Shown here piece by piece: positions 3,450 to 16,429 of a DNA stretch of 32,118 nt (position 1 is the first letter of the stretch; every line of letters starts with the position of its first letter). This DNA comes from a virus: IMG/VR virus record IMGVR_UViG_3300005436_000028, positions 1 through 32,118 of that record; one strand, written 5' to 3'. The position numbers were made by a program, and so were the translations under genes. A model generated the notes under the pieces. That model saw only the letters and a program-made list of their open reading frames with translations, was not told the origin of the DNA and did not search any database.

Positions 3450-4811
3450 TCAGGCCTCCTTCTCGTACCAGTTCTGCGGCGCGGCGTGTTCATCGTAACG
3501 GTCCACGAATTCGCCCCAGCGTTCAGCGCGGATACCGAAGGGCTGCAGGTTCTGCGATTCGCGCATCTTGCCGAGAAAACAAAAGTCCTCGCCCGTGTAG
3601 CGCTTTTCCTCCCTGGTGCGATGCAGCAGGAGAATGACCTGCGCGGCCTGCTCGAAGGCGCTGGAGCCGAGGATCATTTCGACATCGGGGAAGAGATTCA
3701 GATCGTTCGGAGGGGCGCGGCGGATCTGCGCCAGGGCCACCGTGCGGCAGTAATCGCGGGCCACATGCCTGAGCGTCTCCGCTTGCTTAGGCGCGGCTTC
3801 GATGATGTTCTTGGCGCGCGGCACCAGCAGTAACTGCGCGTAATCGACCACGATCAAATCTGCCTTCCATCGCTTCGCCGCCAGCACGGCGCGGGAGCGA
3901 TACTCGCTCACCGTGAGCTCGTGGGTGTCGTCGATGTAGATCGGCAGATCGACGCTCTCTTCCTGGGCGCGTCGGACGGCGGTGCGCTGCTCCGGCGTCA
4001 GGCAGCGGGGATCGCGCATGGCGGCGACCGGGACGCGGGCTATCAGCCGCCACAGACGCCGCAGCAGAGCGCGCTTAGTCATCTCCAGGCTCTGGATGTG
4101 TACCCGCTTGCCGCGCCGCGCGTTCTTGAGCGCGATCTGCAGGCCGCCTTCCGTCTTGCCGCTCGACGGCCTGCCGGCGAGGATGCACAACTCTTCTCCG
4201 TCCAGTCCGCAGGTGGCGCGGTCGATCTCGTCGGTCAAAAGCGATGCCCCACGCAGTCCGCCATGAAGCGCATTGGCTTCCTGCTCGAAGGCTGCCGCCT
4301 CGTCCGCGACGATTTCGATGATTTGCTTGCCCGTGGTGCGTATTTGAGCCGCCGCCTCGGTCATCTGCTGCTGCATATCAGCGAGAACTTCCTGTGCCGT
4401 CTCGCTCTGGTCCGCAGCCCGCGCGAAGCCTGTTGAGCAAATGCCCATCATCCGGCGCAGTATCGCTTTATCGCGCACGATGGAGAGATATGCGCCGATC
4501 ACCGGCCGCCGGGGTAAGCCTTCCGTCAGGCTGGAGAGATATGCCACGCCGCCAATCGCCGCGATTTCGTGCCGCAGTTCATGCGCCAGGGTGATGATGT
4601 CCACTGGATGGCCGGCTTCCATCAGCGCCGCGATGGCGCCAAATATGCGCCGGTGCGAGTCGAGCGAAAAATCATCGGCGGTGAGCCCCTGCTCGATGGC
4701 TTCGTAGAAAGTCCCATTGTCGAGAAAGATGGCGCCAAGGATGGTCTTCTCCGCGTGGATGTCGGTGGGAAATCCGGCGTCTAGGCCATGTAGATCGCTG
4801 GTGGCTTGCAT
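3450..4811 (-). CDS. dnaB: DnaB-type replicative DNA helicase
   Basis: At 453 aa it has the length and two-part layout of DnaB: an N-terminal helical domain (LGAIFLDNGTFYEAIEQGL, with VDIITLAHEL) and a RecA-like ATPase. Walker A is GRPSSGKT at about 213-220, SLEM at 241-244, and Walker B is LIVVDYAQLL around Asp323. It unwinds DNA ahead of the phage fork. No primase is seen nearby, so priming is probably done by the host. The start overlaps the stop of the initiator-like gene (TAATG) behind GGGAGGAAG. This pairing with an initiator candidate is the usual O/P-like arrangement. Confidence 0.93.
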   Translation of the reverse strand: MQATSDLHGLDAGFPTDIHAEKTILGAIFLDNGTFYEAIEQGLTADDFSLDSHRRIFGAIAALMEAGHPVDIITLAHELRHEIAAIGGVAYLSSLTEGLPRRPVIGAYLSIVRDKAILRRMMGICSTGFARAADQSETAQEVLADMQQQMTEAAAQIRTTGKQIIEIVADEAAAFEQEANALHGGLRGASLLTDEIDRATCGLDGEELCILAGRPSSGKTEGGLQIALKNARRGKRVHIQSLEMTKRALLRRLWRLIARVPVAAMRDPRCLTPEQRTAVRRAQEESVDLPIYIDDTHELTVSEYRSRAVLAAKRWKADLIVVDYAQLLLVPRAKNIIEAAPKQAETLRHVARDYCRTVALAQIRRAPPNDLNLFPDVEMILGSSAFEQAAQVILLLHRTREEKRYTGEDFCFLGKMRESQNLQPFGIRAERWGEFVDRYDEHAAPQNWYEKEA

Positions 4812-5596
4812 TAACTTCCTCCCTTGGAAACGGTGGGGCGGGAAAGAATTTTGACCGCCTGCGCCGGCGGGTGACGGCTATTGGCATTTGTGTCATTCAG
4901 CGGGAACACGCCTTTCCATGCGTGAACTATGCTCCGCACGAGGACCTCTTCCGGGGCATATCCTTGATCCCGCAACGACTGCAATGCGTCCACTATCCCC
5001 TCCCGTGCCCGGTCCGTCATTGGAGCCCTGATCTTTTTCCGCATCTCCTCAAAATCAGCCCACACCCGAGGTGGAATCCAGGAAGGAATCTCAAACGCCG
5101 AAAGCCGTGCTTTCGGCGCACGCGGTGCGGGGTTTTGTATTTCAGGCATGGCTAGGCTAGGTTCTGGTTCTGGTTCTGGTAGGGAAGACACGGACGGAAT
5201 TGTCCGGACATGTCCAGACACGGACGGAATTGTCCGGACATGTCCAGACAAAGGAGGATAAAAGCCTACTTGTCCAGACTCAATTGCCCGTTTAGCCCTC
5301 TTTTGTACAGTATTGTCGGCATGTTCCGCCCAATCGTGGACAAGGAGGCGACATGTCTCGTCTTTGTCTAGCCATCCAGTAGCGACCAGAGCCTCTATCA
5401 GTTGATCCTCATCGCCGCGATAGTCGAGAGCGAGAGCAATGTCTTCGTTGCTTAACTTGCCGATATCCCCCCGCCATGCTTCGACCGCGGTCAGATGCCA
5501 CAAGCATTCGAGGATTCCCATTGCCTGGTACAGGGGAACGTCCAGTTTCCGGCACAGGCGCCGCATCTTAGAGTGATTTCTGGCTTCTCTTTTCAT
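4811..5596 (-). CDS. Putative replication initiator/helicase-loader protein
   Basis: The 261-residue product has an N-terminal winged-helix-like domain (about 1-100: MKREARNHSKMRRLCRKLD, SNEDIALALDY, LIEALVATGWLD). A Pro/Ser linker with a tandem 10-residue repeat (SGHVRTIPSV, 117-136) and PEPEPEP follows. The C-terminal domain (about 155-240) resembles DnaD/O-type replication proteins. The position immediately upstream of the helicase gene supports the initiator role, as for lambda O. The linker repeat is encoded by a 30-bp tandem DNA repeat that could be the origin. The exact family is uncertain. Confidence 0.65.
   Translation of the reverse strand: MKREARNHSKMRRLCRKLDVPLYQAMGILECLWHLTAVEAWRGDIGKLSNEDIALALDYRGDEDQLIEALVATGWLDKDETCRLLVHDWAEHADNTVQKRAKRAIESGQVGFYPPLSGHVRTIPSVSGHVRTIPSVSSLPEPEPEPSLAMPEIQNPAPRAPKARLSAFEIPSWIPPRVWADFEEMRKKIRAPMTDRAREGIVDALQSLRDQGYAPEEVLVRSIVHAWKGVFPLNDTNANSRHPPAQAVKILSRPTVSKGGS
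5191..5280. repeat. Phased decamer repeats, candidate replication origin
   Basis: A 30-bp unit occurs twice in tandem (5191-5220 and 5221-5250). Within it the decamers TGTCCGGACA (perfect palindrome) and TGTCCAGACA alternate. Decamers start at 5201, 5211, 5231, 5241 and, as TGTCCAGACT, at 5271, so all are spaced by multiples of 10 bp on one DNA face. They lie inside the initiator-like gene, as iterons do in lambda-type origins. That this is the origin is inference. Confidence 0.6.
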
Positions 5597-10554: not shown

Positions 10555-10602
10555 TGGAGCCGACGAGCGGGATCGAACCGCTGACCTGCTGATTACGAAT
10601 CA
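10555..10602 (-). other. attP core: 3' part of tRNA-Thr(CGU)
   Basis: On the minus strand the 48 nt read as a tRNA from the anticodon loop to the end: loop TTCGTAA (anticodon CGT, Thr), stem TCAGC, variable AGGTC, T-arm AGCGG/TTCGATC/CCGCT, acceptor CGTCGGC, T, CCA. The D-arm and 5' acceptor half are absent, so it is not a working tRNA. Integrases commonly target tRNA 3' halves and the phage copy restores the gene. Phage genes on both sides indicate attP, not attL or attR. Confidence 0.85.
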
Positions 10603-10754
10603 TTGCACCCAGGAATCCATGTATGGCGCAGCGGAACTTAGCCGGCTGATTATAAATAACTTAACAAAACACCTGCCGCCTTGACTATTGCTAGATTCCA
10701 GACATAGTGAAACAATACGCAATTATGGGACATTCGACGACTCCCCACAGAACT

Positions 10755-12942: not shown

Positions 12943-13215
12943 ATGCAGACGCTCGCCGAGGACGAAATTGAGTCCTATGAATTCCTAGCCGAGCGCGGCG
13001 AAGTCATCCGCTGCCTGAAGATGAAAAAGGGTCGTGAGCTGATCATTTTCCGGCTCAAGGCGCCCAAAGACCCGCCCGTCGAACCATCCAATTCCGGCAA
13101 CTCCGACAGCAGCCTGAGCGAGCACGATGCGCACGCCATCGCGGGATTGTTTGACAAGATCAGCCGCACGCAGATTGAGCGCTGGCTGGGCTGGGGTTTA
13201 ATCGGTTCCTGGTAG
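12943..13215 (+). CDS. Unknown phage protein, 90 aa
   Basis: The product (MQTLAEDEIESYEFLAERGEV...) has an acidic start, a beta-like middle (LKMKKGRELIIFRLKAP), a Ser/Asn linker and a C-terminal helix ending RWLGWGLIGSW. The ATG at 12943 has only a weak AGGCGAG site. A TTG at 12895 would add 16 residues. No family recognised. It lies between the par cassette and the methyltransferase. Confidence 0.55.
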   Translation: MQTLAEDEIESYEFLAERGEVIRCLKMKKGRELIIFRLKAPKDPPVEPSNSGNSDSSLSEHDAHAIAGLFDKISRTQIERWLGWGLIGSW

Positions 13216-13288
13216 CGGGGGGAACCGTGGGGGAGGGGGGGGCGTTTGAGTTCCTGCGCCTTCCGCTAACTTCCGCAGTATCAACGAT

Positions 13289-14131
13289 ATGCCAGCACAC
13301 ACCCAAGCAGCCACCGACATTTATTCGGTATCCCATAAAAAGCTCGCCGACCTGACGCCCGATCCTCGCAACGCCAACAAAGGCACCCAGCGAGGCAGGG
13401 AAATGATCGAAAACAGCCTGCGGCAATATGGCGCTGGCCGATCCATCCTGCTCGACAGAAACGGGCGCATCATCGCAGGCAATAAGACGGCTGAGAACTG
13501 CGGCGCAGCCGGACTGAGCGACGTGATCGTGGTGCAGTCAGATGGCACGAAGCTAGTAGCCGTGCAGCGCATGGACCTCGACCTTGACGACGCCACAGCT
13601 AAACAGCTTGCAATCGCCGATAATCGCGCCGGCCAGGTATCGCTCGATTGGGACATCGATGTACTCAAAGAACTGGCGACCGAGATTGATCTGGCGCCGT
13701 TCTGGAGCGCTGACGAGCTGGAGAAGATGTGGCCGCAGAATGCGGACCTGCTCACGGACGAGGACGATGTCCCTGATCTGCCCGAGGAAGCGGTCACCAA
13801 GCCTAGCGATCTTTACATACTTGGCAGGCATCGGCTGCTGTGCGGGGATTCGACGTGCATCACGGACGTTGAGCGGCTGATGGGGGGCGAGAAAGCCAAG
13901 TGCATGTGGACCGATCCCCCCTACGGCGTCGATTACACAGGCAAAACCAAGGATGCCCTGAAGATCAAGAACGATAGTGGCTTCAATCTTCGTGAACTCC
14001 TCGATGGAGCATTCGCTTGCGCCACAGTTGTGCTGGAGGGGGGGGGCAGCGATCTATGTAGCCCACCCGGCGGGTGGGCTAAGTGTAGCTTTTGGCAACG
14101 CGTTCTTGGGCGCGGGCTGGAGACTCCATGA
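13289..14131 (+). CDS. DNA methyltransferase, N-terminal part before the frameshift
   Basis: Residues about 14-130 form a ParB/sulfiredoxin-like N-terminal domain (HKKLADLTPDPRNANKG, GRIIAGNKTAE, DDATAKQLAIADNRAG), common in phage modification methylases. DPPY, motif IV of N6-adenine/N4-cytosine methylases, follows at 209-212. After Glu250 the frame enters a run of nine G and continues into 30 unrelated residues before stopping. With eight G it would read on into the frame that carries the AdoMet-binding motif. As written, this product lacks that motif and cannot be an active methylase. Confidence 0.85.
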   Translation: MPAHTQAATDIYSVSHKKLADLTPDPRNANKGTQRGREMIENSLRQYGAGRSILLDRNGRIIAGNKTAENCGAAGLSDVIVVQSDGTKLVAVQRMDLDLDDATAKQLAIADNRAGQVSLDWDIDVLKELATEIDLAPFWSADELEKMWPQNADLLTDEDDVPDLPEEAVTKPSDLYILGRHRLLCGDSTCITDVERLMGGEKAKCMWTDPPYGVDYTGKTKDALKIKNDSGFNLRELLDGAFACATVVLEGGGSDLCSPPGGWAKCSFWQRVLGRGLETP

Positions 14132-14555
14132 AGGGCTAGTGTGGGACAAAGGAACGATAGTTATGGGGCATAGCGACTATCACTACTCGCACGAGCCCAT
14201 CCTGTATGGATACACATCCGGCGAGGGACGATTTGGACGCGGCGGCAAGGGTTGGTATGGAGACAATACCCAAAAGAGCGTTCTTTCCTATCCGAAGCCC
14301 TCGCGCAACGAAAGCCATCCCACCATGAAACCGGTTGCGCTGGTCGAGCACTGCCTCCGCAACAGCACTCGGGTTAGTGACAAGGTTCTCGACCTCTTCG
14401 GCGGTTCCGGCTCAACCCTTATCGCCTGCGAGAAGACAAGGCGATTCTGCTACATGATGGAACTGGATCCATGCTATTGCGACGTCATAGTCCAGCGCTG
14501 GGAAGCGGCAACCGGACAGAAGGCAGTATTGGATGCGAACCGGTCGACCGCCTAA
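13977..14555 (+). CDS. DNA methyltransferase, C-terminal part after the frameshift
   Basis: From the G-tract (14046) onward this frame carries the rest of the enzyme: AAIYVAHPAGGLSVAFGNAF, WDKGTIVMGHSDYHYSHEPILYG, KPSRNESHPTMKPVALVEHCLR, and motif I VLDLFGGSGSTLIACEK for AdoMet binding, then ELDPCYCDVIVQRW. The ATG at 13977 is merely the first in-frame start; residues before the tract are shadow of the N-terminal frame. Joined with the upstream part the protein would be about 421 aa, a normal length for the ParB-domain beta-class methylases. It overlaps the terminase small subunit gene by 23 nt. Confidence 0.8.
   Translation: MASIFVNSSMEHSLAPQLCWRGGAAIYVAHPAGGLSVAFGNAFLGAGWRLHEGLVWDKGTIVMGHSDYHYSHEPILYGYTSGEGRFGRGGKGWYGDNTQKSVLSYPKPSRNESHPTMKPVALVEHCLRNSTRVSDKVLDLFGGSGSTLIACEKTRRFCYMMELDPCYCDVIVQRWEAATGQKAVLDANRSTA
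14038..14081 (+). other. G9 slippery tract and hairpin in the methyltransferase gene
   Basis: Nine consecutive G (14038-14046) are followed 12 nt later by an inverted repeat TAGCCCACCCG-g-CGGGTGGGCTA (14059-14081), an 11-bp arm pair. The coding frame breaks exactly at the G-run. This could be a phase-variable tract, a +1/-2 recoding site with a stimulator, or a sequencing error. Confidence 0.8.
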
Positions 14556-14859
14556 GCCAGTAGATGAGCAAAAGCTGGACCTTCTGGCCTCGCTCGGTCT
14601 GACCACGGCTGAGATAGCCGCCGTGCTGGAAGTATCGCCCGACACGCTCGAGGAAAAGTACGCAGAGGAGATGGCGATTGGCAAGCAGAAGTGCAAGGCC
14701 AGTGTGCGGCGCAAGCAGTTTGAACTGGCCATGGCCGGCAATCCCACCATGCTGATCTGGCTGGGCAAGCAGATCCTCGGGCAGAAGGAACGCTACGAGC
14801 AACTGGTGAGCGGCCCCGATGGCGGGGCCATTCCGATCAGCATAGAGATCGATGTTTAA
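14533..14859 (+). CDS. Probable terminase small subunit
   Basis: The 108-residue product begins MRTGRPPKPVDEQKLDLLASLG and has a helix-turn-helix (TTAEIAAVLEVSPDTLEEKY), then a helical region (KASVRRKQFELAMAGNPTMLIWLGKQILGQKER) frequent in small terminases. The small subunit recognises phage DNA and recruits the large subunit. The gene lies 181 nt before the large subunit, with only a 60-aa gene between. The acidic C-terminus fits partner contact. Assignment rests on motif style and position. Confidence 0.7.
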   Translation: MRTGRPPKPVDEQKLDLLASLGLTTAEIAAVLEVSPDTLEEKYAEEMAIGKQKCKASVRRKQFELAMAGNPTMLIWLGKQILGQKERYEQLVSGPDGGAIPISIEIDV

Positions 14860-14871
14860 GGGAGGCCAGTG

Positions 14872-15054
14872 ATGCCTTACGCGAGCAAAGCACAGCAATC
14901 CTTCCACGCGAATAAGCCGCAGCTAGAGAAGCAGGGCGTAAATGTCAGCGAGTGGGATGCGGCGAGCAGGGGCAAGAAGCTGCCGCCTCGCGCCCCGATG
15001 CCTAAGCCGCAGGCCAAGCGCAAGAGCCTGTATACAGGCAATGAAGATCAGTGA
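14872..15054 (+). CDS. Small phage protein, SKAQ-FHAN type, 60 aa
   Basis: The product MPYASKAQQSFHANK... with ASRGKKLPPRAP resembles a widespread small phage family (SKAQ..FHAN...ASKGKKLP) of unknown role often found near terminase or head genes. GGGAGG precedes the ATG by 7 nt. The C-terminus is basic (KPQAKRKSLY). It overlaps the terminase large subunit by 14 nt. Confidence 0.7.
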   Translation: MPYASKAQQSFHANKPQLEKQGVNVSEWDAASRGKKLPPRAPMPKPQAKRKSLYTGNEDQ

Positions 15055-16429
15055 GATCGTCAAGCCTACGGATCGGCAGCGGGAATGCTTCAAGGCGTTG
15101 CGCAAATACCGTTTCGTGCTCTACGGCGGCGCCATGGGCGGCGGCAAGTCGTACTTACTGCGCTGGTGGTGCGTCTTGCAGTGCGCCTACTACTTCGCGC
15201 GCTACGGCGTGCGCAATGTGCGCGTGGGTCTGTTCTCGGAGGATTACCCCACGCTGGTAGACCGGCAGATCAGCAAGATCAAGTTTGAGTTTCCCGCATG
15301 GATGGGCCGGATTACCGAAAGCCGGACCGAGGGCTTCAATTTCAAGCTGTGCGGCGCGCTGGGCTATGGAACGATAGCTTTCCGCAACCTCGACGACCCA
15401 AGCAAATACAACTCTGCGGAGTTCGCATCGATTGCGGTCGAGGAACTGACCAAGGATAAAGAAGAGGTCTTCCATGAGTTGCGCAAACGCATGCGCTGGC
15501 CGGGCATACCAGATGAGGACACGCGCTTCCTGGGGGCCACGAATCCCGGCGGCCCCGGTCATGCCTGGGTCAAGCGCTTCTGGCTCGATCATGATCTGCC
15601 CATAGAGATGGCCTCGCTTGCCGATCAGTTCTGCTATGTGCAATCGAAGGCGCAGGACAATCCGCATCTTTCGCCGGGCTATTATCAATCGCTGCTGACG
15701 CTGCCGGCGGAGATGGCGAAGGCCTACGCGGAGGGCGACTGGGATTTGTTCGCCGGGCAGTACTTCACGGAGTGGCGCAAGGATGTGCATGTCTGCGAGC
15801 CCTTCGCGATTCCCTGGTTCTGGACCATCGAGAGATGCGGCGACTGGGGCGAGGCTAATCCATGCGCGTATCTGTGGGTGGCAACCGATCCGCATGGACG
15901 CAAGTTTGTCATCGGCGAAGTCTACGGCGCTGGTCTGAAGATCAAGGAGCAGGCGCGGCTCATCAAGAAATTTGAGGATGGCAAGAAGGTGCGCAGAGTG
16001 GGCGTCTTGGATGGCGCCTGCTTCGACTCGACCGGCCGCGACAAATCAATCGCTGACCAGTTTGCGGAATTTGGCGTGCTGTGGGCACAGTCGGTCAAGG
16101 GACCGGGCTCGATTGCCAGTGGCGCGCAGACGATTCGGACCTTGCTTTCTTATGAGCGCGATGAGGACGGCAAGGTCATTACCGAGCCGATCATGAAGGT
16201 ATTCAGCACTTGTGTGAACGTCGTTCGCACGCTGCCTTCGCTGATCCATGATCCCAACCGGCCGGAGAACTATATCGGCGAGGACCATTGCGCCGACAGT
16301 TTGCGCTACCACTGCGTGGGCGCGGTCAGCGCTCCCAGCGTGCCTGAGAGTGAGATGACTGAAGAGGAAGCGGCATTATTTGCGGAGGCCGACCGAAAAT
16401 ATTATGAGGAAATGCGGGCAATGCAATAA
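15041..16429 (+). CDS. terL: Terminase large subunit
   Basis: The 462-residue motor protein has Walker A GGAMGGGKS (about 29-37), Walker B SIAVEE (130-135), a coupling motif ATNPGG (about 160) and a C-terminal RNase H-like nuclease with acidic residues in GDWG, LDGAC and EDHCADSLRYH. It pumps DNA into the prohead and cuts the concatemer. The ATG at 15041 lies inside the end of the 60-aa gene; the frame opens 33 codons earlier, but those residues are Arg/Ser-rich shadow. The length is typical for the family. Confidence 0.95.
   Translation: MKISEIVKPTDRQRECFKALRKYRFVLYGGAMGGGKSYLLRWWCVLQCAYYFARYGVRNVRVGLFSEDYPTLVDRQISKIKFEFPAWMGRITESRTEGFNFKLCGALGYGTIAFRNLDDPSKYNSAEFASIAVEELTKDKEEVFHELRKRMRWPGIPDEDTRFLGATNPGGPGHAWVKRFWLDHDLPIEMASLADQFCYVQSKAQDNPHLSPGYYQSLLTLPAEMAKAYAEGDWDLFAGQYFTEWRKDVHVCEPFAIPWFWTIERCGDWGEANPCAYLWVATDPHGRKFVIGEVYGAGLKIKEQARLIKKFEDGKKVRRVGVLDGACFDSTGRDKSIADQFAEFGVLWAQSVKGPGSIASGAQTIRTLLSYERDEDGKVITEPIMKVFSTCVNVVRTLPSLIHDPNRPENYIGEDHCADSLRYHCVGAVSAPSVPESEMTEEEAALFAEADRKYYEEMRAMQ

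Follow-up and report, generated by a model that had tools for sequence, protein, structure and literature searches.

Phase-variable methylases are known in bacteria, and DNA methylation shields DNA from some restriction systems while exposing it to methyl-dependent ones. Phage Mu tail assembly genes use a −2 programmed frameshift. In Campylobacter, G tracts of at least 8 switch genes via slippage, with lengths 9 and 10 dominating, and the cut-off for a poly-G phase-variable gene lies at a minimum of 7–8 G (PMC6321876). Low-level frameshifting occurs on G runs (PMC5009743). Coding palindromes have been described in the mitochondrial genes of Nematomorpha (PMC6649704), and local template switching is a process that can create palindromes (PMC8794818). 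Like the bacterial phasevarions of Campylobacter, Helicobacter and Neisseria, the phage locus described here carries a sense G tract of 8–11 in a DNA-modification gene, and a one-base change flips the reading frame. Phasevarions involve host restriction-modification genes, whereas this gene is an orphan ParB-domain DNA methyltransferase (MTase) in a phage terminase cassette; unlike in phasevarions, the tract position moves between lineages, and here the tracts are known from single-length sequences only. A literature search limited to open-licence papers found neither poly-G switching described for a phage-encoded ParB-domain MTase nor any account of the MTase palindrome presented below.

The window, by which we mean the whole stretch of 32,118 bases, is one metagenomic IMG/VR virus record (IMGVR_UViG_3300005436_000028). 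Judged by gene content, its source is a temperate tailed phage: it encodes a DnaB-like helicase, YqaJ and ERF recombination proteins, an integrase and a ParA-like protein, along with the MTase, small and large terminase subunits, a portal, a major head protein and virion proteins. The order MTase–terS–terL is common among relatives. Searches by flanking pattern or TerL found no second member of the same phage population, and no MTase was seen in the covered portion of the capsid-related contigs L179–L182. Elsewhere in the window, a 30-bp tandem repeat (5186–5250; 2.2 copies, 100% match) lies inside the ORF at 4811–5596, with the peptide repeat SGHVRTIPSV, and contains the palindrome TGTCCGGACA. 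Around 10570–10640, just 3′ of the integrase, the peptide ADERDRTADLLITN is encoded in one reading frame; we take it to resemble peptides that often arise from translated tRNA regions, perhaps as an attachment-site remnant, and ARAGORN found no tRNA there. Runs of G6 and G8 occupy 13217–13242, in the stretch that separates the MTase start (13289) from the ORF that ends at 13215.

The MTase is split across two frames (Table 1). The N-terminal frame matches the PHROG 498 DNA methyltransferase (E=1.3e-47), leaves register after the G tract and stops at 14129–14131. The C-terminal frame is open from 13977 to 14555, overlaps the N-terminal frame at G9 and lies +1 (equivalently −2) relative to it. 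Together the two parts cover the PHROG 498 profile consecutively, at positions 35–272 and 269–432, and show the architecture of that family: a ParB-like domain ahead of the beta-class MTase motifs IV and I, in that order. As with PHROG 498 phage MTases, terS and terL follow downstream; in contrast to them, the window copy is frame-broken, and a coding palindrome and/or poly-G tracts occur in only a subset of the family. By profile and motif order, the gene is a ParB-domain beta-class MTase adjoining terminase genes. Frame analysis bears out two claims of the first-pass annotation: that the MTase frame breaks exactly at nine G, and that eight G restores a ParB-domain methylase of about 421 aa with both DPPY and FGGSGST (421 codons plus stop).

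Table 1. Features of the split MTase gene and its surroundings, and in-frame tracts in homologues. Positions refer to the window unless a locus is named.
Feature	Position	Strand	Remarks
MTase, N-terminal part	13289..14131	+	280 aa; ParB-like domain and motif IV (TDPPYG)
G9 tract	14038..14046	+	encodes Gly-Gly-Ala; joins the frames if 8 G
MTase, C-terminal part	14046..14555	+	+1 frame; motif I (FGGSGST); PF01555 E=3.7e-18
Perfect inverted repeat TAGCCCACCCG-G-CGGGTGGGCTA	14059..14081	.	inside coding sequence
Terminase small subunit (terS)	14533..14859	+	overlaps MTase end
Terminase large subunit (terL)	14942..16429	+	ORF start as listed; true start probably further in
G8–G11 immediately before motif IV (TDPPY), in frame	L306:2132, L310:3542, L038:3041, L042:3089, L085:3022, L095:3049, L288:3047		

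Both halves are under purifying selection, with dN/dS against the close relative L007 of 0.12 for the N half and 0.07 for the C half, at synonymous sites near saturation. With both constrained, the frame break must be recent, reversible, bypassed or not real. Among the window's conserved genes, the MTase alone is visibly broken, and the break falls, notably, exactly at the contig's longest homopolymer. The tract by itself is not significant, since dinucleotide shuffling of the window gave at least one G9 in 31 of 100 trials (0.59 expected).

Long sense G tracts recur across the MTase family. In 258 distinct MTase genes, sense runs of 6, 7, 8, 9, 10 and 11 G numbered 15, 3, 3, 8, 2 and 1, respectively, and the longest sense C run was 7, with none of 8 or more. 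A stricter count, with genes clustered more tightly and the window excluded, found 14 sense tracts of at least 8 G in 320 kb of MTase sequence against 4 in 830 kb of control ORFs (non-MTase ORFs of 200 aa or longer from the same loci). Runs of G6–7 showed the reverse, with 18 in the MTase set and 98 in the controls (Fisher test of G≥8 against G6–7, p=2e-7; rate test, p=1.6e-5). Run lengths immediately 5′ of motif IV are bimodal, with runs of 1–6, none of 7, and 8–11 in 9 of 237 genes. The G8–G11 tracts occupy at least four gene positions, among them before DPDDAPE, before motif IV and after motif IV, and AT-rich genes carry them as well (L306 with G11, L310 with G9 and L095 with G8; GC 0.41–0.42). 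Part of the excess is accounted for by glycine-rich loops, as a protein-fixed synonymous simulation expected 3.9 tracts in intact genes, where 10 were observed (maximum of 200 runs, 11).

At least 11 of the tracts are in frame. The out-of-frame cases are the window, L329 and L246, each at G9; L255 and L218 carry G10 on contigs that begin too near the tract for a frame call. The second of the broken genes comes from an isolate: in Roseomonas marmotae plasmid p1318-3, an MTase beside terminase genes is broken exactly at G9 (L329:1361-1369), and no CDS is annotated across it. We searched for near-identical relatives of this plasmid locus and of L306 and found none. One tract turned up in 78 MTase genes from genome contigs, against 13 in the 167 genes whose records are viral, phage or plasmid, which makes the tract chiefly a feature of mobile elements. 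Likewise, G8 followed by TDPPY was absent from 393 scanned bacterial genomes (385 of one class and 8 others), which marks the tract as uncommon in bacterial chromosomes.

We consider it about an even bet (probability roughly 0.5) that the MTase is switched by replication slippage at the G run and that the window contig captures the off state. Such a gene would have acquired a Gly-Gly-Ala-coding G run just past motif IV that grew long enough for replication slippage. Copies with 8 G (or 11 G) would yield the full MTase, while 9-G copies, as here, would stop at 280 aa, lack motif I and presumably be inactive. Tract length would then change within the phage population, and selection might keep methylation switching on and off, for example where hosts differ in restricting methylated or unmethylated DNA; the MTase gene would tolerate, or benefit from, slippage-prone tracts. 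As in poly-G contingency genes, a run of no fewer than 7–8 G lies inside a reading frame, one tract length opens the full frame where neighbouring lengths do not, and the family carries an excess of such runs, weaker in the codon-conditioned test. The recurrence of in-frame and out-of-frame tracts, as read from these gene sequences, agrees better with phase variation than with one isolated accident.

The tract is not an old feature of this site. In the closest relatives, L006 and L007 (about 75% nucleotide identity), in which the MTase also lies directly 5′ of the terminase genes, the tract site reads GAA GGC GGC GCA, in frame. Across an alignment of 175 relatives at the junction, the G run is at most 5 in 173; the exceptions, L018 (G9) and L112 (G8), are both in frame and could simply be ordinary codons. 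The near-universal short runs imply that the tract is young at the window's site. The first-pass annotation had itself set down ordinary in-frame codons in relatives as a refutation of its proposal, and the idea of a tract conserved at this site falls with L006 and L007. Its phase switch survives in altered form: the excess of sense G8–G11 favours switching at the level of the family, and what does not hold is conservation of the tract at this position. A mosaic gene was also found among the homologues (L003:1112-2557), in which a ParB N part 68% identical to the window's is fused to a different MTase core (TSPPY), indicating that halves of such enzymes are exchanged.

Of the rival explanations, a sequencing or assembly miscount of the ninth G, with a true gene of 8 G and intact, deserves the most weight, though we regard it as the less probable account. 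The contig is metagenomic, the lesion sits in its longest homopolymer while the remaining conserved genes look intact, and purifying selection on both halves is what an unbroken gene would show. GGC motifs and inverted repeats are reported to trigger Illumina dephasing errors, with CGGCGGGT among the strongest contexts (PMC3622629), and CGGCGGGT lies inside the adjacent hairpin. Such context errors, however, are mainly miscalls rather than indels; the G9–G11 runs of relatives are mostly called in frame, and the isolate plasmid sequence has a G9-broken copy as well.

A real, one-off slippage mutation that inactivated the MTase, with no selected switching, seems unlikely. It would agree with the closest relatives lacking the tract and with related MTases being broken in other ways, as in Streptococcus prophages Javan476 (L332) and Javan492 (L333). 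These two had been candidates for homopolymer cases and were rejected, for their MTase is annotated as two ORFs at unchanged length relative to the intact Javan486, and the split is probably a nonsense mutation. A one-off event does not account for sense G tracts being in excess and bimodal in length in the MTase family and not in neighbouring genes, with most of those tracts in frame.

Downstream of the tract, after a 12-nt spacer, lies a perfect inverted repeat with arms at 14059–14069 and 14071–14081. The first-pass annotation had described a strong 11-bp hairpin 12 nt past the tract; the perfect 11-nt arms and the spacing stand, and the fold is a 10-bp stem with a 3-nt loop, an eleventh pair requiring a 1-nt loop. 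None of 20,000 synonymous recodings of the hairpin peptide, drawn with contig codon usage, reached 9 bp, so the hairpin is not due to chance, and synonymous simulations rule out a by-product of codon usage as well. No Rfam family scored above its gathering threshold anywhere in the window.

The palindrome is kept in about 33 diverse homologues, in which the arms have changed yet remain complementary, with stems mostly of 9–20 bp centred on the first base of a codon between Pro and Gly. A scan of IMG/VR with the pattern GCSCRCCCGNCGGGYGSGC returned 64 stretches, 35 of them perfect palindromes and 26 of these in MTase homologues, a sample that is biased by the pattern. All 26 have a single reading phase, with the frame open through the palindrome, and a G run of at most 4 over the 30 nt 5′ of it. 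We therefore drew an independent sample of 224 distinct regions using peptides outside the palindrome as queries. Stems of at least 8 bp were present in 18, every one of which has the same codon at its centre, the one between Pro and Gly of Y-x-x-x-P-[APS]-G. Differing arms, each exactly complemented, include GCGCACCCG, GTAGCCCACCCG, ATTTCTCACCCG, CAACAGTCCCG and TTGCGGCCCCG.

Synonymous simulation gave p≤0.00125 for most of the 18 stem-bearing regions. Over 67 sites, Watson–Crick pairs averaged 6.72 of 13, where simulation gave 5.29 (sd 0.145), and of the centre shifts tried, zero alone stands out. Stems of at least 11 bp in long ORFs (1.94 Mb) numbered 12 at the palindrome site and 9 elsewhere; some of the 9 are complementary duplicates, and one is the palindrome site itself read antisense. 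The longest stems reach 20 bp (L228, L196 and L225), and the palindrome is also found in L255, L258, L306, L310, L311, L320 and L328. Among cultured phages, a query with the palindrome arm gave nothing of note; a 10-bp version was found separately in Mycolicibacterium phage phi1_186018 (M. smegmatis mc2 155), whose MTase lies directly 5′ of terS. Two readings were rejected. A general property of CCCGNCGGG seeds does not fit, since 67 seeds elsewhere gave stems of at most 7 and 20 of the 28 seeds at the site have stems of 9–16. Nor is the palindrome confined to a single lineage: hairpin-bearing genes are spread over the MTase tree, whose well-supported branches require a minimum of 7 changes of state. 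L259 and L262 have the local peptide in common and differ at the palindrome.

Tracts of at least 8 G occurred in 7 of 37 hairpin-bearing genes and in 8 of 209 others (p=0.003). With the palindrome-scan loci and the window removed, the counts were 3 of 22 and 8 of 207 (p=0.08), and the association of hairpin and tract is thus no more than suggestive. The two lie anywhere from 12 nt to some 300 nt apart, a spread that speaks against their being directly coupled. On this comparative evidence, the hairpin is a separate feature and does not belong to the poly-G switch.

Programmed recoding, in which a −2/+1 ribosomal frameshift or RNA polymerase slippage aided by the hairpin would make full enzyme from the 9-G allele, is very improbable: the needed shift (+1 or −2) agrees with the −2 direction in Mu and would join the frames near a G run as it does there, frameshifting on G runs is documented and a stem stands 12 nt downstream, but 26 of 26 palindrome-scan genes are continuous in frame with a hairpin and no adjacent G tract, the slip site is missing from the close relatives, and the truncated protein, without motif I, is no evident candidate for a useful second product. 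In contrast to phage Mu, the slip site is not conserved at the junction, the downstream structure does not act with it, being independent of the tract, and a need for two products is not evident. Hairpin-bearing intact genes without a tract rule out the hairpin as a stimulator of recoding at the tract, and the recoding site proposed by the first-pass annotation is left unsupported.

The palindrome itself may be a selected RNA or DNA structure, or the product of local template switching. A G-U excess that would signal selection on the RNA strand was not seen, GT mismatches being no more frequent than AC, so that either RNA or DNA may be the structured form. The MTase palindromes resemble the coding palindromes of Nematomorpha in being perfect inverted repeats inside genes that code for functional proteins; unlike them, they sit at one fixed codon of a single phage gene family, with stems mostly of 9–20 bp, and their arms change in concert between lineages. 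A palindrome whose pairing is kept in many diverse phages would mark either a DNA or RNA element that has so far gone unrecognised or a template-switch process of strongly local action.

If the MTase is switched by slippage, methylation would become a random heritable state of the phage, and so would its escape from restriction and methyl-dependent defence. We extend this reading only tentatively to the family, in which the terminase-cassette ParB-domain MTase might be a contingency locus with recurrent poly-G switches and, in a subset, a hairpin palindrome selected at the nucleotide level. Were that so, stochastic on/off methylation would amount to phage bet-hedging, and the gene would hold, in its palindrome, a new cis-acting RNA or DNA element.
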